From Janibacter limosus (GTDB lineage Bacteria; Actinomycetota; Actinomycetes; Actinomycetales; Dermatophilaceae), in contig NZ_CP036164.1 of assembly GCF_004295485.1 (NCBI RefSeq), forward strand, positions 2,418,001 through 2,482,000: a stretch of 64,000 nt of DNA, written 5' to 3'. The first letter of the stretch is position 1. Each line of letters opens with the position of its first letter. A model generated the notes under the pieces. The model was not told where the DNA came from. It worked only from the letters and a program-made list of their open reading frames with translations, and did no database searches. This document shows positions 601 through 58,301 of this stretch, piece after piece. Position numbers and translations under genes: made by a program.

Positions 601-1626
601 ATGAGCGATCTGATGGTGGGTCTCACCACAGGCACCCGCGTCGCGGTCCGGACGCAGATCGACCCCGCCCCGGCGCACGGCCCGACCCTGACCGACACGG
701 TCGGCGAGCTCCTCGCCCTCGACGACGAGCAGGTGCACATCGCCACCCGCACCGGCGAGGTGGTCCTGCGCCGCGACCTCGTCGTCGCGGCCCGCGCCAT
801 CCCCCCGAAGCCGACCCGCCGCGGCGCCCCCCACCGCGCCATCACCATCGAGGACCTGCACCTCGTCATGACCAAGGGACAGCCCGGCCTCGATGAGGAC
901 TGGCTGGGGACGAAGGGAGCGGGCTGGCTCCTGCGCGCCGGCGCCGGGTGGACCGGACGGTCCAACTCGGCCCTGCCCGTGGGCGATCCCGGCCTGCCCC
1001 TGCCCGAGGCGGTCGACGCGGTCGAGTCCTGGTACCGCGAGCGCGAGCTCGCGCCGGTCGTCATGCTCCCTCGGCCGGTCGGTGCCGGCACGAGCGACGA
1101 CCCGCTCGGAGCCCTTCTGCTGCAGCGCGGTTGGCTCGAGGGCCATCCCGCCGACGTGCTCACCGGCCGGACCGAGACGCTGCTGCACGGCGCCGGTCCC
1201 TCCCCCACCGGGTACTCGCTGCAGGCCAGCGACGCCGCGGACGAGGCGTGGCTGGCGGGCGGCTCACCACGACTGCTCCAGCACCTCGACGCCGCGCGGC
1301 GGATCCTGGCGCTTCCACCGCGTCAGGTCTTCCTCACCGCCCGCGACGCCGCAGGCCACGTCGCCGGCGTCGTGCGCGTGGCCCTGGCCGACGGGTGGGC
1401 CGGCATCTTCGGCCTGCACGTCGACCCCGACCACCGCGGGCGAGGCCTGGGCCGCTGGCTGACGGTCGAGGCCCTGCGCGCGGCCGCCGACGCCGGCGCC
1501 TCACTCACCTACCTGCAGGTCGAGCCGGGCAACGAGCCCGCCCAACGCCTCCACCGGGGGCTCGGCATGACCGCGCACCACGACTACGTGTACCTGGCCA
1601 GGCTTCAGGATTCCGCACGACCTTAA
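601..1626 (+). CDS. GNAT family N-acetyltransferase
   Basis: Protein of 341 residues with a C-terminal GNAT domain. The acetyl-CoA loop reads DPDHRGRGLGRWL around residues 280-292, followed by YLQVEPGNEPAQRLHRGLGM, the usual beta-bulge/alpha-4 region. The first ~100 residues form a small separate domain, seen in actinobacterial homologues as a beta-rich leader. The substrate cannot be told from sequence. It starts 22 bp from divergent fdxA; a second ATG at 613 is an alternative. Its stop codon TAA is supplied by the first unit of a 32-bp repeat array (CCT TAA GG), so the gene ends inside the repeat. Confidence 0.8.
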   Translation: MSDLMVGLTTGTRVAVRTQIDPAPAHGPTLTDTVGELLALDDEQVHIATRTGEVVLRRDLVVAARAIPPKPTRRGAPHRAITIEDLHLVMTKGQPGLDEDWLGTKGAGWLLRAGAGWTGRSNSALPVGDPGLPLPEAVDAVESWYRERELAPVVMLPRPVGAGTSDDPLGALLLQRGWLEGHPADVLTGRTETLLHGAGPSPTGYSLQASDAADEAWLAGGSPRLLQHLDAARRILALPPRQVFLTARDAAGHVAGVVRVALADGWAGIFGLHVDPDHRGRGLGRWLTVEALRAAADAGASLTYLQVEPGNEPAQRLHRGLGMTAHHDYVYLARLQDSARP

Positions 1627-1708
1627 GGAGATGCGGACCCTGGGCCGCACGACCTTAAGGAGATACCCCCCAGGATCCGCACGACCTCAAGGAGATGCGG
1701 ATCCTGGG
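1614..1708. repeat. Tandem palindromic repeat array 1 (3 units, 32-bp period)
   Basis: Three units begin at 1615, 1647 and 1679 with an exact 32-bp period. The shared core is GCACGACCTTAAGGAGATG, with CCTCAAGG in unit 3. Each core is an imperfect palindrome: CGCA and CCTT on the left pair with AAGG and TGCG on the right, with a 3-bp mismatched stretch in each arm. The array spans the 3' ends of two convergent genes. It gives the GNAT gene its TAA stop and the phosphopantetheinyl transferase gene its TGA stop. The same repeat recurs at 21808-21932, also between convergent genes. Confidence 0.9.
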
Positions 1709-2265
1709 CTGCTCGCCTTCGCCCTCTCGAGCGCCTCCGCGGACTCGTCCTGATCGTGGGTGATGACCCCGACCTCACCTGTGCCATCGAAGGCGAGGGC
1801 GGCGAGGTAGCCGTGGAGGGGCACGGGGAGGGGCTGGACGTGCCGGCCTGCCAGGTCCCTCGAGCCGGTGGCCTTGAAGGTCGCCTCCCCGCGCACCCAG
1901 GTCTCGACGTCGGGGCCGCGGTCGAGGGCCTCGACGTCGACACCCACGGGGTCGGGCGAGGTGGCGACCAGGACCAGGGGTCCGGCGTGGGCGACGCTGA
2001 CGTGCAGCCCGGCGACCCGGGGGCGACCGTGGGGGTCGCCGCACTCGTCGCAGGTGCGATCGATCGACACCGCACGGGGATCCTGACCGGTCGCGGCAGC
2101 GACCGCGACCCTCAGCAGCACCGCCCCGACGACGAAGCGCCCCAGGTCGGCCGCCGACGCGAGCCCGTCCGCGCGCCGCTCCTCGACGGGGTCGAGCATC
2201 GAGCGGAGCCGCAGGTCCATCGCGCGCAGGTCCGACCACCAGACGTCCACGACGTGGTTGCCCAT
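1687..2265 (-). CDS. 4'-phosphopantetheinyl transferase (Sfp/AcpT-like)
   Basis: Transfers phosphopantetheine from CoA to a carrier-domain serine. The 192-residue protein shows the Sfp-family motifs: LHVSVAHAGPLVLVA, then GVDVEALDRG (the Mg-binding G-(I/V)-D-x-E), then WVRGEATFKATG in place of the usual W-x-x-KEA-x-x-K. The Lys-Glu pair is Gly-Glu here, which weakens the motif slightly. It diverges, with a 61-bp gap, from a gene whose product has a carrier domain, its most likely substrate. The start is the ATG at 2265; the C-terminus runs into the palindromic repeat array. Confidence 0.8.
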   Translation of the reverse strand: MGNHVVDVWWSDLRAMDLRLRSMLDPVEERRADGLASAADLGRFVVGAVLLRVAVAAATGQDPRAVSIDRTCDECGDPHGRPRVAGLHVSVAHAGPLVLVATSPDPVGVDVEALDRGPDVETWVRGEATFKATGSRDLAGRHVQPLPVPLHGYLAALAFDGTGEVGVITHDQDESAEALERAKASSPGSASP

Positions 2266-2289
2266 GTGTGGCACTGCCCCTCCGAGTTG

Positions 2290-2326
2290 TAACCTGCACC
2301 AAACGACTAAGGATAGGCACACCAAC
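2290..2326 (+). promoter_or_regulatory. Candidate promoter (-10) and DtxR/IdeR-type iron box
   Basis: TAACCT at 2290-2295 fits a TANNNT -10 box. Downstream, TAAGGATAGGCACACCAAC at 2308-2326 matches the 19-bp DtxR/IdeR consensus (T-A/T-AGGTTAGSCTAACCT-A/T-A) at about 13 of 19 positions, with the left half best conserved. It ends at the base before the ATG and overlaps the ribosome binding site, a position suited to repression. Regulation by iron is inferred from this match plus the iron transporter genes in the operon. Confidence 0.45.
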
Positions 2327-4909
2327 ATGACGCTGATGGTCCAGCTCGAGGACGCGCCGGTCGCGGCTCCCGAGCACACCTCGCGCCATCGGGCTCCCTT
2401 CCTCCACCCCGGCTCCCCCGCGCCCGCGCTCGTCGAGCACGGTCGGGTCACCACGCACGACGAGCTGGCGCGCCGGGTCGCCGACCTCGCCGACCGGATG
2501 CCGCCGGCCGCCACGGGCCGCCGGCTCGTGCACCTGCCGCTCGCCCGCGACGTCGCCGGGGTCGTGGGCCACCTCGCCGTGCTGGCCGCCGGCCACGTCG
2601 CCCTCGTCACCGGACCGGACGCCGAGTCGATCACCGCGCGCTTCGCCCCGGACCTGCGCGTGGCCGACGAGCGCATCGAGACGCTGTCGCAGCACGCGAC
2701 CCACCTGCTCCACCCCGACCTGGCGCTCCTGCTGTCCACCTCGGGCAGCACCGGCAGCCCCAAGCTCGTACGCCTGTCGCGCCACAACCTCGGGAGCAAC
2801 GCCGCGGCGATCGCGCAGGCGCTCGGGCTGGGCCCGAAGGACCGCGCGATCACCTCCCTTCCCCTCCACTACTGCTACGGGCTGTCGGTGCTGCACAGCA
2901 CGCTCCACGCCGGCGGCAGCGTCGTCGTGACCGACCGCTCGGTGACCGACGACGAGTTCTGGCGAGAGCACACCGAGCAGCGGGTCACCGTCCTCGCGGG
3001 CGTCCCCCACACCTTCGACCTCATCGGGTCGCGGCTGCGCGACACCCTGCCGGGCCTGCGCCTGGTCACCCAGGCGGGCGGCGCCCTCGCGCCCGACCGC
3101 GTCACGGAGCTCACCGAGCTCGGGCGGGCGAAGGGGTGGCAGCTCGCCGTCATGTACGGCCAGACCGAGGCGACCGCGCGCATGGCGATCCATGTGGGCG
3201 ACGAGGTCGCGCTGCGCCCCGACGCCGTGGGCCGGGCGGTGTCCGGGTCCTCCTTCCGGGTGGACCGGTCCGGTCATGAGGACCGCGACGACGGCGCCGG
3301 CGAGCTGGTCTTCACGGGTCCCGGGGTGATGCTCGGGTACGCCGAGCACCCCGACGAGCTGGCCCTGGGCCGCATGCTCGACGAGCTGCGCACCGGCGAC
3401 CTCGGGCACGTCGACGAGGCCGGCGTCGTGCGCGTCACCGGTCGCTGCGACCAGGTGGCCAAGGTCCTGGGCCTGCGCATGGACCTCGGACGGGTGGGCG
3501 CGGCACTCACCGACGCAGGTCACCGCACCGTCGTCACCGCAGACCCCCAGCATCTCCTCGTCACCCTCGTGATCGACCCTGCCGAAGGGAGCACCCCGCA
3601 CCTGCTGCGGTCGGTCCGGGACCTCGCGGCCCACGCATCCGGTCTGCAGCCGGGCGCCGTCGTCGTCGCTCCCGTCGACGCGATCCCGTTGCTCCCCAAC
3701 GGCAAGACCGACCGCATCGCCTGCCGTGAGCACGCCCTCCGAACGCTTCGGTCCCACCCCGCCGACGGCGCGGCAGGCGACCCCCTCGCCGCCGCCGTCT
3801 CGGTCGTCGCGAGCTCCCTCGGCCGCGACGAGGTCGACCTCGACCGGTCCTTCGCAGAGCTCGGCGGTGACTCCTACAGCCTCGTCCAGACCTCGGTGCG
3901 TCTCGAGCAGGTCCTCGGGCAGCTGCCCGACGGGTGGCACCGGGTCCCCCTTCGCCAGCTCGCGCTGGAGGCCACCCCACCCGGCCGCCACGTGCGCTGG
4001 CTGGACACCCCACTGGTCCTGCGGGCCGTCGCCGCCATCGCGATCTGCGCCAGCCACCTCGGACTGGTCGCCGTCCCGGGCGGCGCCCACACGCTGCTGG
4101 CCCTCGCCGGGTGGTCGATGAGTCGCTTCACCCTCGACACCACCGACCCGAGGGCCCGACGCCGCCGCGGGCTGCGCTCGATCGCCGCCCTCGCCATCCC
4201 GTCGATGGCCGTGGCCCTGGTCGGCCTGGTGACCGCCGGCGGGTACGGCTGGGAAAATGTGCTGCTCGTCAACTGGCTCGTCGGCGAGATGGAGTGGGGC
4301 GCTCGGATCAACCTGTGGTTCATCGAGGCCCTGCTCGCCTGCAGCCTCGCGGTCCTCGCCCTGCTGTCCGTACCGCGCCTGGGGCTGGTCCACGTCCGCC
4401 ACCCCTGGGCCTGGAGCATGGCGCTGGCCGCGGCCGCACTCGTGCCCCGATGGATCCTCGTGCCCGACTCGACCGGCGCCACCCGTGGACTGCCCGGGTC
4501 CGTGCTGTGGCTCTTCGCCCTCGGCATGGCACTGGGCGTGGCGCGCACCCGCCGGCAAAAGCTGGCCACGATGGCGCTGACCGCCATCGGCATGTGGGAC
4601 TTCTTCGTCGAGCCCAGCCGCGGCCTGACCGTCTTCGCCGCGATCGCCGTGCTCGCCTTCGTCCCACGCATCCCACTGCCCCGGCTGCTCGTGCTGCCGC
4701 TCGGTCTGCTCGCCGCGGCCTCCCTGCACGTCTACCTCGTCCAGTGGCAGGTCTTCCGGGTCGTCGACCAGCCGGTCCTCGCCCTGCTGGCCTCCTTCGC
4801 CGCCGGGATCACCGTCTGGTGGCTCCTCCAGGGCCCCACCCGCGCACTCATCGATCGACTCGCCCGACTTCGCCCCACCCTCTCGACCCCGACCGGAGAC
4901 CCCTCATGA
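2327..4909 (+). CDS. NRPS-like fusion: adenylation domain, carrier domain, membrane acyltransferase
   Basis: An 860-residue three-part protein. Residues ~30-470 are an AMP-forming adenylation domain: STSGSTGSPK at 137-146, YGQTEA at 278-283, RTGDLG at 355-360, and LLPNGKTDR with the catalytic Lys near 460. Residues ~485-545 are a peptidyl carrier domain with GGDS (Ser 516). Residues ~560-840 are hydrophobic with about ten membrane spans and resemble the acyltransferase-3 family, with a His in the first span (ICASHLG) and SLHVYLVQW near the end. There is no condensation or thioesterase domain. The likely scheme is to activate an acid, load it on the carrier, and transfer it at the membrane. 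The next gene overlaps by ATGA. The acid activated cannot be named. Confidence 0.8.
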   Translation: MTLMVQLEDAPVAAPEHTSRHRAPFLHPGSPAPALVEHGRVTTHDELARRVADLADRMPPAATGRRLVHLPLARDVAGVVGHLAVLAAGHVALVTGPDAESITARFAPDLRVADERIETLSQHATHLLHPDLALLLSTSGSTGSPKLVRLSRHNLGSNAAAIAQALGLGPKDRAITSLPLHYCYGLSVLHSTLHAGGSVVVTDRSVTDDEFWREHTEQRVTVLAGVPHTFDLIGSRLRDTLPGLRLVTQAGGALAPDRVTELTELGRAKGWQLAVMYGQTEATARMAIHVGDEVALRPDAVGRAVSGSSFRVDRSGHEDRDDGAGELVFTGPGVMLGYAEHPDELALGRMLDELRTGDLGHVDEAGVVRVTGRCDQVAKVLGLRMDLGRVGAALTDAGHRTVVTADPQHLLVTLVIDPAEGSTPHLLRSVRDLAAHASGLQPGAVVVAPVDAIPLLPNGKTDRIACREHALRTLRSHPADGAAGDPLAAAVSVVASSLGRDEVDLDRSFAELGGDSYSLVQTSVRLEQVLGQLPDGWHRVPLRQLALEATPPGRHVRWLDTPLVLRAVAAIAICASHLGLVAVPGGAHTLLALAGWSMSRFTLDTTDPRARRRRGLRSIAALAIPSMAVALVGLVTAGGYGWENVLLVNWLVGEMEWGARINLWFIEALLACSLAVLALLSVPRLGLVHVRHPWAWSMALAAAALVPRWILVPDSTGATRGLPGSVLWLFALGMALGVARTRRQKLATMALTAIGMWDFFVEPSRGLTVFAAIAVLAFVPRIPLPRLLVLPLGLLAAASLHVYLVQWQVFRVVDQPVLALLASFAAGITVWWLLQGPTRALIDRLARLRPTLSTPTGDPS

Positions 4910-50621: not shown

Positions 50622-51338
50622 ATGAGTACGACAGACCTCTGGTACGTGTCCTATGGCTCCAACATGTCTCGTCGGCGGCTGGGCTCCTACATCGAAGGGG
50701 GCCGACCGCCCGGCTCGGCGGTGACCTACGTCGGTGCGCGTGACACGACGATGCCGCTCGCCGACATGGCCGTCACCCTCCCCGGCAGCCTGTACTTCGC
50801 GGGCGAGTCGCGCACGTGGGGCGGCGGGGTCGCCTTCTACGACCACGACTCCCCCGGCGCCACCGCGGCCCGCGCCTACCGGGTCACCGTCAGCCAGTTC
50901 GTCGACATCGCGGCCCAGGAGATGCACCGCATCCCCGACCCGGGCGACCCGCTCGAGGCCGTGCTGCTCAACGGACTAGACGGTGCCCGCCACCAGGCAG
51001 GCCCGGGCGTCTACGAGACCCTGATCGAGGTGGGCCGGCACGACGGTCTGCCGATGCTGACCTTCACCGCTCCCCACGGACTGACCGCGGTACCCCACAC
51101 GCCGCCGCGTCCCGCCTACCTCGCGATGCTGGCCGAGGGCCTGCGCGAGGCGCACGGCTGGGACACGGAGCAGATCGGCGCGTACTTCGCTGCCGTCATC
51201 CGCGGTGAGGACGAAGGGAGCCCGGCGGCTCCCCCTTCGCACGACCGTGCCGCGCTGGACGCGATGGCGCAGGACCCCGACTTCGCGGGCAGCCGCGAGG
51301 AGTCAGCACTGCGGCCGGACCGGCAAGGGAATCCCTGA
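50622..51338 (+). CDS. Gamma-glutamylcyclotransferase-like protein
   Basis: 238 residues. YVSYGSNMSRRRL near the N-terminus is the YGSN motif of the GGCT/AIG2 fold, and the Arg/Tyr/Gly-rich follow-up (YIEGGRPPG) fits. The catalytic Glu cannot be fixed by eye. ATG 50613 three codons earlier is an alternative. It is separated from the next genes by a toxin-antitoxin region on the other strand. Confidence 0.65.
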   Translation: MSTTDLWYVSYGSNMSRRRLGSYIEGGRPPGSAVTYVGARDTTMPLADMAVTLPGSLYFAGESRTWGGGVAFYDHDSPGATAARAYRVTVSQFVDIAAQEMHRIPDPGDPLEAVLLNGLDGARHQAGPGVYETLIEVGRHDGLPMLTFTAPHGLTAVPHTPPRPAYLAMLAEGLREAHGWDTEQIGAYFAAVIRGEDEGSPAAPPSHDRAALDAMAQDPDFAGSREESALRPDRQGNP

Positions 51339-51397
51339 ACGGGCTGGGCGGGACGGTCCCCACACCGCCCACGCGGGGCTTCGTTCACGCTGCCCCG

Positions 51398-51718
51398 TCA
51401 TGCGACATGCAACGGCGTGATCGCGGCAACCTTGTCGCGCAGTGCACGGCGCTCGAGCCGGAGCTCGTAGTTCGACTGCAGATTCATCCAGAGCTCCTCG
51501 GACGTTCCAAAGTAGCGCGCCAGACGGATCGCCGTATCGGCGGTGATCCCCCGCTTGCCGTGCACGATCTCGTTGATCCGGCGCGGCGGAACACCGATGG
51601 ACACGGCAAGCTTGTTCTGCGTGATCCCGAAGCCCTCGATGAAATCCTCCATCAGGATCTCTCCCGGGTGGATCGGCTCGATCAGGTCGTTCTCAGTGGT
51701 AGTCGACGAGTTCGACAT
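51398..51718 (-). CDS. higA: HigA-type helix-turn-helix antitoxin
   Basis: 106 residues. HPGEILMEDFIEGFGITQNKLA and GVPPRRINEIVHGKRGITADT form the Xre-like HigA DNA-binding domain. The toxin gene precedes it and overlaps it by 26 bp, the toxin-first order typical of higBA. ATG 51718 is supported by GGGAGG eight bases upstream. Confidence 0.9.
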   Translation of the reverse strand: MSNSSTTTENDLIEPIHPGEILMEDFIEGFGITQNKLAVSIGVPPRRINEIVHGKRGITADTAIRLARYFGTSEELWMNLQSNYELRLERRALRDKVAAITPLHVA

Positions 51719-51974
51719 TGTCCGCACCTCCCTCTCTCCAGACGAAGCAGAGACGCCATTGCGCGTTCACGCGGATGCTGTGCTGCCCGCGTCGGTCGCC
51801 GACCAGACGCTCCAGGCGGTTGCCTGGCGGGACCCTGAGGTCCTCGACATCCTTCGCCGCGTGAATCAGCTCGAGCTTCCGCAAGGTCGCCCTCTGCACC
51901 GTCCGGTCGACGCGCTTGACGTACTGCTCATGCCAGATGCGCTCGGTGTCCTTGCTGCCGAACGATCTGATCAC
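51693..51974 (-). CDS. higB: HigB/RelE-type ribosome-dependent toxin
   Basis: 93 residues. IRSFGSKDTERIW at the N-terminus and VNAQWRLCFVWREGGADNVELVDYH at the end match HigB of the RelE superfamily, which cuts mRNA on the ribosome. GTG start. A TTATAT-like -10 and an AT-rich inverted repeat lie upstream. Confidence 0.9.
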   Translation of the reverse strand: MIRSFGSKDTERIWHEQYVKRVDRTVQRATLRKLELIHAAKDVEDLRVPPGNRLERLVGDRRGQHSIRVNAQWRLCFVWREGGADNVELVDYH

Positions 51975-52001
51975 GAGACCAGCATATAACGGACACCGTC
52001 A

Positions 52002-52018
52002 TTAACGCTAGACGTTAA
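52002..52018. promoter_or_regulatory. Perfect inverted repeat, likely HigA operator
   Basis: TTAACG-CTAGA-CGTTAA is a perfect 6-bp dyad in an AT-rich patch about 30 bp upstream of higB, just upstream of a TATAAC/TTATAT promoter element at about 51983-51990. Autorepression by HigA is the expected use. Confidence 0.65.
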
Positions 52019-52124
52019 ACCCAAACCCGACCACGTTCCGGCACGCACGGCCATCACTGTCCTCAGACTGCGCACCATCCTCAGGTCGGAGCACCAAGCA
52101 CGCCGGTGGCCGTGCGAGACGAGA

Positions 52125-52460
52125 TCAGTCGGTGGTGATGTGGCTTCGCAGTGCCTCGGCGAGCGGCTGGAGATGCGTCTCCACGACATCGCGGACGACA
52201 TCGGCGGCGACTCCGAAGTACTGGTGGACGAGGATGTTGCGGAAGCCCCGGATCTGCGGCCAGGGGATATCCGGATGCGCATCTGTGATCTCGGCAGGGA
52301 GATGGTTCACGGCTTCGCCGATGATCTGTAGATTGCGCTCGATCGCATCCATTGCCATCTCCACCGTGCCCGCATCGCCCTCAAGAGCGACGACATATCG
52401 CTGGCATCGTTCGATGGCCTCGAGGACATCGGCGATGCGCTGAGCAGGGTCTCGGCTCAC
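52125..52460 (-). CDS. hepT: HepT-like ribonuclease toxin (DUF86)
   Basis: 111 residues, HEPN domain. RNILVHQY gives the R-x4-H-x-Y motif: Arg and His form the RNase site, and Tyr is the residue that MntA AMPylates in known pairs. The start overlaps the partner gene by 4 bp. Confidence 0.88.
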   Translation of the reverse strand: MSRDPAQRIADVLEAIERCQRYVVALEGDAGTVEMAMDAIERNLQIIGEAVNHLPAEITDAHPDIPWPQIRGFRNILVHQYFGVAADVVRDVVETHLQPLAEALRSHITTD

Positions 52461-52786
52461 AGCGCGACCGCGTCGATGAGTGCCGAGGCCGAAATCGGCC
52501 GCTTGAGCAGCTGGACGGGAAACACGTCGATGTCGTCGCGGCCGAAGAGCGCTCGGGTGTCTTCCATCAGCCCCGAGGCCCGCATGAGCAGATTCCCCTC
52601 CGCAGGGTCCATCTCGACCAAGATGTCGATGTCCGAACCTGGGCGCGCAGTGCCCCGGGCAATGGAGCCGAACAGCTTCGGGCTGGTTGCGCCGTACCGG
52701 TCCAGGATCGCCAGGAACTCATCACGATGCGCGTCGAGGAGCTCGCGCAGGGCGAGCGTCTCGGGTGTCATGGTGATCTCAGGCAT
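52457..52786 (-). CDS. mntA: MntA-like minimal nucleotidyltransferase antitoxin
   Basis: 109 residues. GSIARGTARPGSDIDILVE fits GS-x10-D-x-D of the MNT family; a third acidic residue lies in DIDVFPVQLL. In characterised pairs, MntA blocks HepT by adding AMP to its tyrosine. The gene order and 4-bp overlap support such a module. Confidence 0.88.
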   Translation of the reverse strand: MPEITMTPETLALRELLDAHRDEFLAILDRYGATSPKLFGSIARGTARPGSDIDILVEMDPAEGNLLMRASGLMEDTRALFGRDDIDVFPVQLLKRPISASALIDAVAL

Positions 52787-52932
52787 GTCGTCAGGATACC
52801 TGCGAGTGCGGATTAGCACGGCTGTTCCGCCGACGATCTGAACTGATGAGGCCCGACGGTTTGAGCTACCTGGCCAAGCCTCATACGGCGTCGGCTGACC
52901 GGCTGCCGCGGAGGGAGGACAGTATGCGTGTC

Positions 52933-52966
52933 CTACACGTTGAAGCGGAACTCCACCGCGTTCTGT
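52933..52966. repeat. ychF-end repeat, copy A (left boundary)
   Basis: 25 bp identical to the ychF 3' end, from CTACACG through CTCCACC, then GCGTTCTGTGG. It marks the left edge of the insertion chain; sequence to its left shows no further copy. Confidence 0.8.
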
Positions 52967-53012
52967 GGCCGAACAACCTTTGGTGACAGCGACTCTGATG
53001 GCGGAACTCGAA

Positions 53013-54335
53013 TCAGCTGACGCGGGGGTCCTGGCCATACTGCCGCGGCACCCCCAGGTGCTCGCGCAGCGTGGAACCCTGGTAGTCGCGGTGGTAAAGT
53101 CCCCGCTTCTGCAGGATCGGGACGACCTCGTCGACGAAGTCGTCCGCGATCGCGTACGTGGCCTGCTGGAGCCAGAAGCCGTCCGCGATCCCGGCTTCGA
53201 ACGCGTCCTGCAAGTAGTCGGCGATCGCCTCGGGAGGCCCGACCGGGCTAGGGGCATAGTCGATGACGCCGTGGGCCAGGATCTCGCGCGGGGTCCAGCC
53301 CTGGTACGCAATCTCCAGCGCACGGGACGAGCGAGGATCAGCCGGGTTCGCCCGCGCACTCTCGAGCTGCGGTCCGCTCAGAGGCTGGTCGGCCCGCGAC
53401 GCATCCAGGCTCAGACCGAGCATCTGTCCGAGCATCGGCACCCGCTGCGGCGCGAGGTGCTCGTCCATCTGCATGCGCCTGCGGATCGCCTCCTCTACGG
53501 TGCTGCCCATGATCGGCATGAATCCCGTGAAATACTTCAGTTCGTCCGCGTCGCGACCAGCCTGGTGTGCGGCGGATCGGTACATCTCCCGCTCCTGGCG
53601 AGTGGTCGCGAAGTCGTACGTGGACGATCCCACCGCGACGCTGGCGTAGCGGCCGGCAAGCCCTAAGCCGTACTCGCCGCCACCAGCGGAGGCGACGACA
53701 GGCTGGCCCTGCTCCGAGGGCGGGATGACCAGCGGCCCGCGGGAGGCGATATGCTTGCCGCCCAGGTTGATCGGCTGGATCTGGTCCATGTCCAGGAACT
53801 GGCCGGTATCGACATCGCCGACCCACGCATCCTCGCCCCAGCTGCCCCAGAGCGCCTGCACGATGGTGATCATCTCGTGGGCGCGCTCATAGCGTTCCGC
53901 ACGCGGCCGTACCTGCTCGCCATAGTTCGCCACAGCAATCGGGTCGCTCGTGGTGACGGCGTTCCAGCCCATGCGCCCGCGGCTGAGCACATCAAGCGCC
54001 TTGAACTGGCGGGCCAGGTTGTAGGGCTCGTTGTAGGTCGTCGATCCGGTGGCGATGAAACCGACCCGCGTGGTCTCGTGCGCGAGGACCGAGAGCGTCA
54101 CGATCGGATCCAGCGTGGACGCAGGGGCCTGGTTCTCCATGTCCCCGCGAGCCCCCGGGAAGTCCGGAGCGAACAGGAACGCGAACTTCCCCCGCTCGGC
54201 GGTCTGCGCCAACTTCACCTGAACCTCGACATCGGTCAAGTTTCTCGTGTCGTTCTCCGGAGCGCGCCACGCCTGCCCCTGCACCCCGTAACCGCTGCTC
54301 AAGGTGGCACTGAGCAACATCATCTTCTGACTCAT
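53013..54335 (-). CDS. LLM-class flavin-dependent monooxygenase (NtaA/SnaA/DszA family)
   Basis: 440 residues, a luciferase-like TIM barrel using FMNH2 from a reductase. LSRGRMGWNAVTTSD near residue 120 and YERAHEMITIVQALWGSW near 150 are hallmarks of the nitrilotriacetate/pristinamycin/dibenzothiophene sulfone monooxygenase branch. Such enzymes attack sulfonates, sulfones or aminopolycarboxylates; the substrate is not known. No reductase or transporter gene accompanies it. It is the only gene of the first inserted segment. Confidence 0.85.
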   Translation of the reverse strand: MSQKMMLLSATLSSGYGVQGQAWRAPENDTRNLTDVEVQVKLAQTAERGKFAFLFAPDFPGARGDMENQAPASTLDPIVTLSVLAHETTRVGFIATGSTTYNEPYNLARQFKALDVLSRGRMGWNAVTTSDPIAVANYGEQVRPRAERYERAHEMITIVQALWGSWGEDAWVGDVDTGQFLDMDQIQPINLGGKHIASRGPLVIPPSEQGQPVVASAGGGEYGLGLAGRYASVAVGSSTYDFATTRQEREMYRSAAHQAGRDADELKYFTGFMPIMGSTVEEAIRRRMQMDEHLAPQRVPMLGQMLGLSLDASRADQPLSGPQLESARANPADPRSSRALEIAYQGWTPREILAHGVIDYAPSPVGPPEAIADYLQDAFEAGIADGFWLQQATYAIADDFVDEVVPILQKRGLYHRDYQGSTLREHLGVPRQYGQDPRVS

Positions 54336-54455
54336 GAGTGGTCCTCCGTCGTGGCGGGGGTCAAGGGCGCAACTGCTTCGAGCCCTGACGCAGCTGCCAC
54401 GAGAGCGCTGCCGGCCACCGGGTTCGCATCATGTTCTTGTAGCACTCATTCTCAG

Positions 54456-54486
54456 ACGATGAACAGGAACTCCAGCACATTCCGTG
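54456..54486. repeat. ychF-end repeat, degenerate copy E
   Basis: GATGAACAGGAACTCCAGCA then CATTCCGTGG. About 26 of 34 positions match copy A, including the flank TTC-GTGG that the ychF end itself lacks. It closes the monooxygenase segment 24 bp before copy B. Confidence 0.65.
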
Positions 54487-54510
54487 GTCTCGCGAGAAGT
54501 CAATGGGGAG

Positions 54511-54565
54511 CGACTACACGTTGAAGCGGAACTCCACCGAGTTCCGGCAGATGCCAACCTCTGAA
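54511..54565. repeat. ychF-end repeat, copy B
   Basis: 28 bp (54511-54538) identical to 57213-57240, followed by GAGTTCCGGCAGATGCCAAC and CTCTGA. The flank to the right of the core is shared with copy C, so the two neighbouring segments have related left ends. Confidence 0.85.
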
Positions 54566-54583
54566 TTCTCCCGCTATACCGAA

Positions 54584-54973
54584 TTACAGGTAGCGGCACA
54601 CCCTGTCCGCTCCGCACGTGTCGGGGTCCGGATGCGCGGCGTCGCGCCTGAGGTCGGCAAGGGTGGCATGCAATGCGGTGAGCCTGGCGATCTGCTGCTC
54701 GATCTCGGCCAGGCGTGCGTCGAGGAGATCGCGCACGTGCTCGCAGGGCGCGTGACCACCGTCTCGGATGTCGAGGATCTGGCGGATCTGGGCGAGGCTG
54801 AGGCCGGCGGCCTGCCCTCGGTGGACGAAGTCGATCCGGGCGATGGCGTCGGGCGCGTAGTCGCGGTAGCCAGACGGGGTGCGCACGGCCGGGGGCAGCA
54901 GGCCCTGCTCCTCGTAGAACCGCAGCGTCTTCGCCGTCGTGCCCGCAGCCTCGGCGAGTTCCCCGATGCGCAT
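54584..54973 (-). CDS. merR: MerR-family metal-responsive regulator
   Basis: 129 residues. N-terminal winged helix (MRIGELAEAAGTTAKTLRFYEEQGLLPP), then a dimerisation helix. Cys in HAPCEHV near residue 80 and the pair CGADRVC near the C-terminus correspond to the three mercury-binding cysteines of MerR (C82, C117, C126); copper sensors of the CueR type lack the first. The spacing between the last two is shorter than in Tn501 MerR. Divergent from merA; starts 4 or more codons upstream are possible. Confidence 0.8.
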   Translation of the reverse strand: MRIGELAEAAGTTAKTLRFYEEQGLLPPAVRTPSGYRDYAPDAIARIDFVHRGQAAGLSLAQIRQILDIRDGGHAPCEHVRDLLDARLAEIEQQIARLTALHATLADLRRDAAHPDPDTCGADRVCRYL

Positions 54974-55004
54974 CGCAGCCTCCATCCATGCGTCAGGAGC
55001 ACTC

Positions 55005-55036
55005 TTGACCTTCCCCTGTACTGGAAGGTCCAGTAT
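55005..55036 (+). promoter_or_regulatory. MerR-type promoter/operator of merA
   Basis: -35 TTGACC at 55005-55010 and -10 CAGTAT at 55031-55036 are 20 bp apart, the over-long spacing that MerR proteins correct. The dyad ACCTTCC-CCTGTACT-GGAAGGT fills the spacer at 55008-55029. It looks like the CueR-type box rather than the Tn21 mer operator. Confidence 0.8.
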
Positions 55037-55078
55037 GGCTGAGAAGGAAGAGAAGTCCAAGCGTTGACAGGAGCTGCG

Positions 55079-56503
55079 ATGCCTACGAAGTACGACCTCG
55101 CCATCATCGGATCGGGTGGCGGTGCGTTCGCCGCGGCGATCCGCGCGACCACGCTCGGCAAGTCAGTGGTGATGATCGAGCGCGGCACGCTCGGCGGGAC
55201 CTGCGTGAACACCGGGTGCGTGCCTTCGAAGGCGCTCATCGCCGCCGCCGAAGCGCGACACGTCGCCGCGGACGCCTCGGCCCAGTTCCCGGGGATCGCG
55301 ATGACCGCGGAGCAGGTGGACATGCCCGCCCTGATTGCCGGGAAGCAGTCGCTGGTCGAGTCGCTGCGCGGCGAGAAGTACGCCGACGTCGCCGACTCCT
55401 ACGGCTGGCCGGTGTGGCAAGGAGACGCCGCGTTCGCGGGCACCTTCGACGCGCCGATGCTGGAGGTCGCAGCCACCGACGGGACGGTCCAGGCGATCGA
55501 GGCGGAGCACTACCTGGTCGCCACGGGGTCTCGGCCGTGGGCTCCGCCGATCGACGGCCTGGACGAGGCGGGGTACCTGACGTCGACCACCGCGATGGAG
55601 CTGGACCAGGTCCCCGAGTCGCTGCTGGTGCTCGGCGGCGGCTACGTCGCCCTGGAGCAGGCGCAGCTGTTCGCGCGTCTCGGTTCCCAGGTCACCGTGC
55701 TGGCGCGGTCCCGGCTGGCGTCGAAGGAGGAGCCAGAGGTGTCCAGGACACTTCAGCAGGTGTTCGCCGACGAGGCGATCCGCGTGGTGCGCCGCGCGCT
55801 GCCCACCCGAGTGTCCCGGGAAGCAGCGACCGGGCAGGTGTTGGTGACCGCAGACGTGTCGGGCGGCGAGCAGGAGTTCCGCACCGACCAGGTCCTGGTG
55901 GCGCTCGGACGCCGCCCGGTCACCGACGGGCTGAATCTCGGCCCGGTCGGGGTGAAGACCGGCGGCTTCGGCGAGGTGGTCGTCTCCGACCGGATGCAGA
56001 CCTCCAACCCACGGATCTGGGCCGCGGGCGACGTGACGGGGCACCCCGAGTTCGTCTACGTCGCCGCCCACCACGGCACCCTGGTCGCCGAGAACGCCTT
56101 CGCTGAAGCCGACCGGGCGGTGGACTACGCCCGGCTGCCGAGAGTGACGTTCACCAGCCCGGCGATCGGGGCGGTCGGCATGACGGAGAAGGAGGTCGTC
56201 GCCTCGGGGATCCGCTGTGACTGCCGCGTCCTGCCCCTGCACCACGTGCCCCGCGCGCTGGTCAACCGCGACACCCGCGGCTTCATCAAGATCGTCGTGA
56301 ACGCCGACACGAGCGAGATCCTCGGCATGACCGCCGTCGCCAAGGACGCCGGGGAACTCGCCGCCGCAGGGGTCCACGTGCTCGGCAAGAAGGTCGCCGA
56401 GGTCGCCGACGCGTGGGCCCCCTACCTGACCATGGCTGAAGGCATCCGGATCGCCGCCAAGGCCTTCACCACCGACCCGTCGATGCTGTCGTGCTGTGCG
56501 TGA
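55079..56503 (+). CDS. merA: Mercuric reductase MerA (without N-terminal HMA domain)
   Basis: 474 residues, FAD-dependent disulfide oxidoreductase reducing Hg(II) to Hg(0) with NADPH. FAD motif IIGSGGGAFAAAI, redox pair GTCVNTGCVPSK, NAD(P) motif VLGGGYVALEQAQ, and the C-terminal pair in LSCCA that carries Hg(II) to the active site. The latter separates it from lipoamide or mycothione reductases. No merT, merP or merB is nearby. ATG 55079 has GGAG five bases upstream. Second inserted segment. Confidence 0.93.
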   Translation: MPTKYDLAIIGSGGGAFAAAIRATTLGKSVVMIERGTLGGTCVNTGCVPSKALIAAAEARHVAADASAQFPGIAMTAEQVDMPALIAGKQSLVESLRGEKYADVADSYGWPVWQGDAAFAGTFDAPMLEVAATDGTVQAIEAEHYLVATGSRPWAPPIDGLDEAGYLTSTTAMELDQVPESLLVLGGGYVALEQAQLFARLGSQVTVLARSRLASKEEPEVSRTLQQVFADEAIRVVRRALPTRVSREAATGQVLVTADVSGGEQEFRTDQVLVALGRRPVTDGLNLGPVGVKTGGFGEVVVSDRMQTSNPRIWAAGDVTGHPEFVYVAAHHGTLVAENAFAEADRAVDYARLPRVTFTSPAIGAVGMTEKEVVASGIRCDCRVLPLHHVPRALVNRDTRGFIKIVVNADTSEILGMTAVAKDAGELAAAGVHVLGKKVAEVADAWAPYLTMAEGIRIAAKAFTTDPSMLSCCA

Positions 56504-56533
56504 AGGCATGGCCTGAGCCAGCGAATGGACACC

Positions 56534-56587
56534 AGAGGTTGAAGCGCAGAACGGAACTCCACCGATTTCCGGCAGACACCAACCTCT
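56534..56587. repeat. ychF-end repeat, copy C, with inverted ends
   Basis: Contains GTTGAAGCG, a 7-bp insertion, then GGAACTCCACCGATTTCC and GGCAGACACCAACCTCT. The copy is bracketed by AGAGGTT at 56534-56540 and AACCTCT at 56581-56587, a perfect 7-bp inverted repeat, so the whole site could fold on itself. It separates merA from the remnant segment. Confidence 0.75.
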
Positions 56588-56687
56588 CAATGATCACCAC
56601 GCGCGACCGCGCAGGTCGACCTCGCCGTCCGGCCAGGAAGCAAGCCGGTCTCGGCCAACTTGCCTTCAGTCTGCTCGCTTCGCCGCG

Positions 56688-56921
56688 TCATCGATGGGCC
56701 TCCCGGCGGTGACCAGCAACCGTCTGAGACTCGAGCGCTTCGTACGGCGTCGTTTTCATCGCATCCCGAACCCGCGTCAGTTCGACGAACGCTGGCAGGT
56801 TAGGCCTTGCGCGCCTGGGGACGGCAACATTGATTCGTCGGGGATTCACATCAGCGAGGCCGAACAACGCCAGCACGGACTCGCCGTGCAGGTACGCGCC
56901 CTCACCAGCGCGCAGGAACGC
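56688..56921 (-). pseudogene. C-terminal remnant of an AbiEi-like antitoxin
   Basis: Minus-strand reading gives FLRAGEGAYLHGESVLALFG then LADVNPRRINVAVPRR and ELTRVRD, which resembles the middle of AbiEi-type type IV antitoxins. An in-frame TAG cuts the 5' side and the expected N-terminal helix-turn-helix and C-terminal part are missing. It abuts and slightly overlaps the broken VOC gene. Confidence 0.55.
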
Positions 56922-57192
56922 CTATCCACGTCGACCTTGTCCTCGACGGATACCGGCTCGGCCTCGCCACCGAAACCAGCACCCGCGATGACCACGGTCT
57001 CGACCCGGTCGCCGATGGTCGCGGGCAGCGGTGATCCTGTGGACTGACGACGTTCCCTCAGGCTACGAGCGACTCATCGAGCTCGGCGCAACGCCCGTCA
57101 AGTCGCCAGAGCCCTGGCTCGATCGTCTACTGATCGTCTGGGTCGAGGACCCGGACGGCCACCTGGTGCAGGTTGTCCAAGCCACGAGCTGA
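56915..57192 (+). pseudogene. Frameshifted VOC (glyoxalase-fold) gene remnant
   Basis: One frame gives GTPIHVDLVLDGYRLGLATE and DHGLDPVADGRGQR up to a TGA near 57031; the next frame continues VILWTDDVPSGYERLIELGA and PWLDRLLIVWVEDPDGHLVQ to the stop at 57192. Together they form most of a VOC-family protein, so a frameshift near 57030 and loss of the 5' end have inactivated it. It fills the third segment up to the ychF end. Confidence 0.75.
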
Positions 57193-57197
57193 CGAGA

Positions 57198-57240
57198 CGT
57201 TGAACCGAAACGCGACTACACGTTGAAGCGGAACTCCACC
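57198..57240. repeat. ychF-end repeat, copy D (authentic ychF 3' end) with a degenerate half-copy
   Basis: 57213-57240 contains the ychF stop and last codons and equals copy B over 28 bp. Just left of it, 57198-57212 reads ACGTTGAACCGAAAC, a weak copy of the same core. This is the chromosomal end of the insertion chain. Confidence 0.8.
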
Positions 57241-58301
57241 ACGTCGCCGTCGACCATGACGTACTCCTTGCCCTCCATGCGCACCTTGCCTGCAGCCTTG
57301 GCATCGGCCATCGAGCCCAGCGCGTCGAGGTCGTCGAAGGAGACGACCTCGGCCTTGATGAACCCTCGCTCGAAGTCGGTGTGGATGACGCCCGCCGCCT
57401 GGGGAGCCTTGTCCCCGCGGTGGATCGTCCACGCGCGCGACTCCTTGGGGCCGGCGGTGAGGTAGGTCTGCAGACCGAGGGTGTTGAAGCCCTTGCGCGC
57501 GAGCTGGTCCAGGCCCGGCTCGTCGATGCCCACGGACTCGAGCAGCTCGCGCGCCTCGTCGTCCTCGAGCTCGGCGACCTCGGACTCGAGCTTGGCGTTG
57601 AGGAAGATCGCCTCGGCCGGCTCGACGAGCGCCTGCATGCGCTCCTGCAGGTCGGTGTCGGTCAGCTGGTCCTCGTCGACGTTGAAGACGTAGATGAAGG
57701 GCTTGGTGGTGAGCAGACCCAGCCCCGCGGCCAGCTCCATGTCGACCCCGGCGGCCGCTCCCTTCGCAGAGAGGGTGTCGCCTGCCTCGAGCACCTCGCG
57801 GGCGGCGACGGCCGTGTCGAGGACGGCCTTGTCGATCTTCTTGCCCTTGAGCTCCTTCTCGAGCCGCGGGATGGCGCTCTCGAGGGTCTGCAGGTCAGCG
57901 AGGACGAGCTCGGTGTTGATGGTCTCCATGTCGGAGGCCGGGTCGATGCGGCCGTCGACGTGGGTCACGTCGTCGTCGACGAAGGCGCGCACCACCTGGC
58001 AGATCGCGTCCGACTCGCGGATGTTGGCGAGGAACTTGTTGCCCAGCCCCTCCCCTTCGCTCGCACCGCGGACGATGCCGGCGATGTCGACGAAGGAGAC
58101 CGTCGCGGGGAGGATCTTCTCGCTCCCGAAGATCTCGGCGAGCCGCTTCAGCCGGACGTCCGGCAGCGGGACGACGCCGACATTGGGCTCGATGGTCGCG
58201 AAGGGGTAGTTCGCGGCCAGGACGTTGTTCTTGGTCAGGGCGTTGAACATCGTCGACTTGCCGACGTTGGGGAGCCCGACGATTCCGATGGAGAGTGCCA
58301 C
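57216..58301 (-). CDS. ychF: Ribosome-associated ATPase YchF/EngD
   Basis: 361 residues, an OBG-family P-loop protein that prefers [12 protein letters not shown] at the N-terminus, [17 protein letters not shown] and FNVDEDQ in place of the G4 NKxD are characteristic, and the C-terminal TGS domain ends [15 protein letters not shown] start. The last codons serve as the apparent attachment site for the adjacent insertions and remain intact. Confidence 0.95.

Follow-up and report, generated by a model that had tools for sequence, protein, structure and literature searches.

At the 3′ end of ychF, the stretch of Janibacter limosus DNA analysed here (64,000 nucleotides, contig NZ_CP036164.1, positions 2,418,001 to 2,482,000; hereafter the window) carries five cassettes at about 51.3-57.2 kb, with copies of the ychF 3′ end marking them off. 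We consider it very probable that they form a ychF-anchored array of discrete mobile gene cassettes that lack a recombinase of their own and insert site-specifically by means of a putative enzyme acting in trans. The boundaries are precise, one site has been used again and again, cassettes have passed between genera, and the copies of the ychF end are under coding constraint. Outward from ychF, the cassettes hold a decayed VOC gene, merR with a merA-like reductase, a luciferase-like monooxygenase, a HepT/MNT pair, and HigB/HigA. The cassette system is a large family in Actinomycetes and not a local chain.

The ychF open reading frame (ORF; 57216..58301, minus strand), which served as the tblastn anchor for the loci of relatives, ends in the codons VEFRFNV* (57216-57239, minus strand), the authentic 3′ end and insertion site, and its terminus reads GTGGAGTTCCGCTTCAACGTGTAG. 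Copies identical to this end over 24-25 bases begin at 54514 and at 52933; two degenerate ones occupy 54452-54475 and 56534-56562 (the latter with a 5-nt insertion), and an additional copy at 52008-52031, with two mismatches against the degenerate tail pattern, opens the HigBA cassette and extends the chain to ~51.3 kb. An earlier note, made from the window alone, had listed five places of the ychF end; with coordinates re-determined, all five are real and all copies face the same way, but its list was incomplete, as the sixth copy shows. At the five inserted junctions, each on the minus strand, a right-end motif adjoins a core copy: junction 1 (56534..56587, with the right end of cassette 1 at 56563-56587 and the core copy with the 5-nt insertion), junction 2 (54514..54562, core copy 54514-54537 and motif 54538-54562), junction 2b (54452..54500, the degenerate core plus motif), junction 3 (52933..52981, core copy 52933-52956 and motif 52957-52981) and junction 4 (52008..52056, motif 52032-52056). 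Junction 2b lies ~60 bp from junction 2 and is probably the stump of a lost cassette. Upon searching the 3.55-Mb genome for CTACACGTTGAAGCGGAACTCCACC with up to three mismatches, we found three occurrences, all in the window array and on one strand, and no match to the reversed-pattern control. The repeat is hence no genome-wide dispersed one, a case that the earlier note had named as refuting its reading: the 25-mer is confined to the ychF array in this genome.

Related genomes (handles G; their loci, L) show both empty sites and other cargo at the 3′ flank of ychF. In the close relative G010 the site is empty, with ~350 bp from ychF to the shared flank, and homology of the window with this empty site resumes at about 51302. 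G011 carries one different, 0.7-kb cassette at ychF, beyond which ~1.4 kb is absent from G010; its outer core retains the empty-site tail GTCTGA, and the core nearer to ychF has GTGTAA instead. G002 has the HigBA cassette directly at ychF, and in the window this cassette is the outermost one, as would be expected if new cassettes entered beside ychF. Vertical descent, with the same genes in the same order at ychF, thus fails to describe even these three relatives.

To describe the junctions, we drew on 81 fetched loci, which gave 61 ychF ends (the 144-codon ychF fragment of G221 counted among these "authentic" ends) and 217 other core-like matches; the 161 of these with a CGGAAC-like upstream motif (two substitutions allowed) were analysed and the other 56 set aside. 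We number positions along the reading direction of ychF, starting where the 24-base core begins. The right end of the inserted junctions reads approximately CAGAGGTTRTTCGGCTACGGAACG, is ~26 bp long and terminates in CGGAACG, with a conserved part of about AGAGGTTRTTCGGCTACGGAACG that is absent from ychF; the TTC-C/T-G that had been noticed just right of the core in the inserted copies, and not in ychF, is the inner end of this longer motif. In its outer part, which was not used for selection, at least 11 of 17 consensus bases were found in 96 of 160 junctions versus 0 of 160 control stretches, the consensus being derived from the same junctions on which it was scored. Intervals between neighbouring junctions (n = 141) had a median of 1,246 bp, with a 10th-90th percentile range of 633-4,097.

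Upon comparing junctions that share a cassette, we found that pairs sharing the left one agreed up to position -3 (-4 excepted) but not from -2 onward (42 usable of 44 pairs), and that pairs sharing the right one agreed clearly from about +11/+12 (112 pairs). The left part of the core (2-11) was more alike within a locus than between loci, with 0 of 500 shuffles as low in both genera tested; the right part (12-20) was not locus-specific (253 and 436 of 500 shuffles in two genera). Linkage and within-genus shuffles together indicate that the 13-14 bases in the middle derive mainly from the locus itself, and that the cassette brings in the last ychF codons. Relative to the consensus, the inserted copies showed 381 synonymous and 61 non-synonymous codon differences, with 14 versus 49 possible single changes, and this synonymous excess indicates that the copies have served as functional ychF ends. 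Past the stop codon there is a second motif, related to the right end in inverted form; it was distinct in just 10 of the 222 junctions (0.05 expected), and we base no conclusion on it.

The cassettes have moved between hosts. Comparison of 138 cassettes gave 45 pairs in which the likeness covered at least 80% of the longer member, and in 9 of these pairs the two came from different genera. A 652-bp cassette common to G011 and G250 is 90.4% identical, with their ychF genes 71.6% identical; G327 and G198 share a cassette at 98.5%, with ychF at 84.0%; and the HigBA cassette of the window is 96.4% identical in DNA over 617 bp to a cassette of G371, a genome of another family. One and the same unit thus recurs, with precise ends, in more than one host and at more than one position, as is characteristic of mobile gene cassettes. 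The cargo is integron-like: toxin-antitoxin types (HigBA, FitA and PIN, HEPN, HepT and MNT proteins), GNAT acetyltransferases, glyoxalases, TetR/MarR/ArsR regulators, Abi_2, GmrSD, a KAP NTPase and one Cass2-type domain, together with a few insertion sequence (IS) transposases. One cassette ORF matches the aminoglycoside adenylyltransferase family PF10706. Directly behind ychF in G143 (L055, 7706-8905) lie two ORFs that look, by eye, like pieces of an IS110-type transposase.

The family extends widely. In 22 of 147 genomes (that of the window included) the tail pattern is present two to six times, for the most part as a cluster on a single strand. With the upstream motif included, the junction pattern matched no more than 127 of the 396 genomes scanned in the order, spread over 36 of 109 genera (reversed control, 0), and no more than 29 of the 296 scanned in the class, both counts of genomes being upper limits that include some two-mismatch matches to ychF itself with GGGGACGTGG. 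An exact scan for the junction in GTDB contigs gave at least 119 matching stretches; among the matches listed (80 loci), all names are ones that we take to be Actinomycetes, with Demequina, Brevibacterium, Brachybacterium, Kocuria, Arthrobacter, Microbacterium, Nocardia and Acidipropionibacterium among the genera. The exact pattern had no match in viral contigs, and none of the plasmid and phage records covered 80% of the 50-base junction consensus; partial plasmid matches fell in three actinobacterial records (Nocardia farcinica, Tsukamurella and Nonomuraea), one of them annotated as ychF.

We suggest that each cassette consists of one or a few genes between a left end that would supply the last ychF codons (F N V stop, TTYAACGTNTAR) and the right end of ~26 bp. 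An excised, probably circular, cassette may recombine with the 3′ end of ychF, which would stay intact because the left end of the cassette re-encodes its tail. Strand exchange staggered over 13-14 bp between the two ends (YGGTNGARTTYMGN) would leave this stretch mostly of local origin, and newer cassettes would come to lie next to ychF with older ones pushed outward. The conserved ends and precise boundaries suggest a site-specific recombinase that would work in trans and that either the host or a visiting element would provide; mobilisation in trans, as the earlier note had proposed, is kept as the best reading.

No tyrosine integrase was found in the arrays examined, in line with the description of the segments as recombinase-less. 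A tblastn screen of 163 loci with seven tyrosine recombinases, some of them from the same genomes, matched two: L054, which holds the integrase element of G041, and L073, which holds a remnant in G030. One resolvase query matched only L054, L073 and L068, serine enzymes being screened less deeply; a PF00239 match lies ~4 kb from the first core of G143. Pfam was run on 231 of 242 cluster representatives with the 25 commonest families per search considered, a scope in which a singleton recombinase could hide. The PF00589 matches of 30 genomes lay, by eye, more than 100 kb from the arrays or on other contigs.

Several observations weigh against the proposed cassette system or limit it. The screens just described consist of a few query proteins plus Pfam on chosen genomes, and they did not reveal the enzyme that moves the cassettes. 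The loci themselves were chosen for a pattern match or as relatives, and a few of the 161 junctions are longer duplications of ychF (L034), while one is an authentic end that was cut off (L113). In 20 of the 81 loci ychF was not in view; where an upstream stretch was fetched (14 loci), 12 proved to have ychF in the same orientation, about 1-20 kb away from the first copy in view, and ychF was not seen in the stretches fetched for G343 and G071. The G071 copy (L043, G071:C1:2182532), which has a right-end-like motif, is ~80 kb from ychF and may reflect either a rearrangement or another insertion site. For the HigBA cassette of the window, we saw no distal core copy. The strand exchange proposed above also meets exceptions: among 56 non-HigBA pairs of left ends, linkage was partly retained left of +11 (position 2: 0.77 versus 0.48 for the base level), and the tail arginine is encoded by AGR (AGG/AGA) in 17 of 41 array-bearing ychF genes, with 0.69 expected from the gene body, and in 1 of 20 without an array in view. 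The AGR codons of authentic tails mean that the middle stretch is sometimes brought in, and, taken with the partial mid-core linkage, that the data as a whole fit neither target duplication alone nor a crossover at one fixed point. At third codon positions, the GC of the tail was not significantly different at loci with and without an array (p = 0.17). A single mid-core crossover was dropped after the linkage, non-HigBA pair and within-genus shuffle results.

A clade of tyrosine integrases does use the end of ychF, and the cassettes may be cis-mobilisable remnants of such ychF-specific elements, relatives of the G041 type, moved in trans by that integrase family, an explanation that we regard as unlikely. 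The integrases of this clade are encoded directly against the ychF stop codon in L054 (G041) and L337-L341 (G036, G056, G196, G319 and G385), and the remnant in G030 adjoins a copy of the ychF tail. The earlier note had suggested looking for a recombinase beside another ychF-end repeat, and these are such cases, but with a different core: the outer copies found in G041, G036, G056 and G196, which bound elements of ~9-15 kb, share only the 16-bp core TTCCGCTTCAACGTST, have little in common to its left, and lack the right-end motif. No outer copy was seen in the fetched stretches of G319 and G385, and the order scan gave no cassette junction in G036, G056, G196, G319 or G385. The G041 element also carries what looks, by eye, like a type I restriction gene set.

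Stretches like the end of ychF occur in phages too. In the Streptomyces satellite phage MulchRoom (OQ784832; L320, 7338-7379), ~42 bases read by eye as a ychF tail lie ~70-110 bp from a tyrosine integrase gene, 23 of them identical to the junction consensus, which suggests that its attachment site is probably ychF; the word ychF does not appear in the main text of the MulchRoom paper (PMC10690885). Unannotated faecal phage contigs, MT835996 (L322, 18-42) and MT838115, have a ychF-tail-like stretch close to one record end (92% over 25 bases, E ~0.3) and are possibly prophages at ychF. In pneumococcus, according to two papers, prophages insert upstream of ychF (PMC10383233, PMC6375853), and a study of Staphylococcus prophages contains the word ychF once (PMC8460829). 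Longer duplications of ychF without a cassette right end were seen at 9782 in L034 and at 7376 in L052 (oriented), ~8.6 and 6.1 kb from ychF, and one such duplication spans 79 bp at 93.7% between the window and the G006 copy; they are possibly a third kind of insertion at ychF.

An equally doubtful explanation is that the host recombinases XerC and XerD move the cassettes, as they do pdif modules. Six genomes with arrays or ychF-tail copies (G327, G198, G345, G416, G143 and G097) have only two PF00589 matches each; in G327, G143, G345 and G198 both proteins score best as XerC- or XerD-type, mostly just under the equivalog cut-offs, and G198 and G345 have no PF00239 match. In the genome of the window, only two of six PF00589 proteins were typed, again best as XerC/XerD-type. 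The sites, however, are dissimilar: in seven genomes, the top dif-like site of each includes CCGATAATNNNCATTATG and is unlike, by eye, the junction arms CGGAAC and GTTCMG, in a search at two mismatches in which the reversed pattern also matched in G345 and G143. Moreover, the stretch of local origin spans 13-14 bp and not the 6 bp that is the usual central stretch of dif. A resemblance to XerCD/dif was therefore not supported.

Transposition, with a target-site duplication of 13-14 bp made in trans by a site-selective transposase or a casposase-like enzyme, has a similarly low probability. It would suit the local origin of the middle 13-14 bp, which in the main test were linked to neither flanking cassette, and the cassette ends, which by eye are partly inverted repeats. 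A strict target duplication, however, cannot bring AGR codons into the ychF tail, nor can it yield the partial linkage of non-HigBA pairs, and any one transposase cluster (IS3-like and ISL3-like, by eye) was limited to two loci at most, with an rve domain in 2 of 130 proteins.

Far less likely still are integron-type cassettes with attC sites and IntI, that is, a cluster of attC sites lacking an integrase (CALIN) with the integrase elsewhere. Scale (the 141 intervals with their median) and cargo, from toxin-antitoxin, GNAT and glyoxalase genes to the Cass2-type domain, are those of integron cassettes. Yet the junctions copy the end of a coding gene, and they fold hardly more stably than shuffled sequence (mean z -0.67 for the top and -0.66 for the bottom strand in the first 80 junctions; 0.03 for control ychF ends, n = 61), so an integron-like hairpin, tried as a candidate, was not supported by this weak signal; the typed tyrosine recombinases of G327, G143, G345 and G198, and the two of six typed in the genome of the window, fall far below integron-integrase cut-offs. 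That an old gene cluster was inherited vertically, its repeats being dispersed or due to chance, is refuted to near certainty: nothing favours it except the decay of some copies, and against it stand sites in the genus that are empty or hold other cassettes, the restriction of the repeats to ychF in this genome, and cassettes more alike than ychF between genera.

Set beside known systems, the ychF arrays resemble integron cassettes and CALINs in their small promiscuous cassettes, their toxin-antitoxin, acetyltransferase and glyoxalase cargo, the use of one site, and an integrase that is often not adjacent; unlike these, they are anchored in a coding gene with a re-encoded tail, show no clear attC-like hairpin signal, and have no integron integrase among the proteins typed for their genomes. 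With pdif modules they share recombinase-less modules bounded by short recombination sites and a suspected host enzyme, and they differ in having junctions dissimilar to dif, a chromosomal location, one orientation with few exceptions, and a longer stretch of local origin. As the features of integrons and of dif were tested and not found, we class the ychF arrays as mobile gene cassettes that belong to neither group. Cis-mobilisable elements (CIMEs) and the tandem accretion of integrative elements likewise stack att-flanked segments at the 3′ end of a gene, and the ychF arrays are like CIMEs in that they have no recombinase of their own and are flanked by direct att copies at a gene 3′ end. 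In Streptomyces, the island PAISt at the bacA 3′ end is described as excising in modules released by recombination among several direct repeats (PMC4057263); it is large and has its own tyrosine recombinase, whereas the ychF units are ~1 kb, have conserved ends of their own, and have moved between genera without one. The G041-type elements and MulchRoom use or carry the same ychF 3′ end, but they encode an integrase, and the four G041-type outer copies share only the 16-bp core. A search of the open-access literature (subscription papers not covered) gave no description of ychF cassettes or islands in actinobacteria, and a paper on actinobacterial integrative and conjugative elements (PMC3218068) has no occurrence of "ychF". 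The earlier statement that no recombinase-less family at ychF had been described agrees with this search, with the correction that integrase-bearing elements at ychF do exist.

Integrons are the textbook gene-cassette system and, to our knowledge, are rare in Actinomycetota. We tentatively propose, as a wider claim that may well not hold, that Actinomycetes have an integron-independent cassette platform of their own, in which the end of ychF is the acceptor, cassettes re-encode its last codons, and a machinery not previously recognised, possibly a host enzyme that every cell has, captures them and shuffles them between genera. If true, such a second widespread platform, with cargo of the integron kind, would explain the spread of small adaptive genes in Actinomycetota, and the end of ychF would be a predictable address at which to read them in genomes. 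It also raises the question of which enzyme moves the cassettes when the only tyrosine recombinases detected in some hosts are XerC-/XerD-like.

Within the window, the cargo between the copies is unrelated from one cassette to the next, as had been noted: the luciferase-like monooxygenase and merR-merA are supported by Pfam, the VOC gene by likeness to a cassette of G381. Cassette 1 (56563..57215, minus strand) adjoins ychF and appears to hold a decayed VOC/glyoxalase gene; over its first 301 bases it has 81% identity with the cassette that comes first behind ychF in G381 (L107) and that has a VOC-like ORF, a name given by eye from the ORF, and Pfam had no match for the window ORF at 56694-57044. 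Cassette 3 (52957..54475, minus strand) encodes the luciferase-like monooxygenase (53013-54335, PF00296). Cassette 4 (52032..52956, minus strand) encodes a HepT-like RNase (52125-52460, PF01934) and an MNT-type nucleotidyltransferase (~52457-52786, PF01909), probably a toxin-antitoxin pair, and has an 81% DNA match over 668 bp within the ychF locus of G051. Cassette 5 (51303..52031, minus strand) encodes the HigB toxin (51693-51974, PF05015) and a HigA-like antitoxin (51398-51727, PF01381). Cassette 2 (54538..56562) has genes on both strands, a merR-like regulator (~54584-54976, minus strand, Pfam MerR) and a merA-like oxidoreductase (55064-56503, plus strand, Pfam Pyr_redox_2), with an 85% DNA match to merA-merR of Corynebacterium plasmids. 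Units of merR-merA that are 87-88% alike to it lie on the 5′ side of ychF in G169 (L325) and G143 (L055), and another precedes the 144-codon ychF fragment of G221 (L134); given their place on the 5′ side of ychF, these three were left out of the array members.

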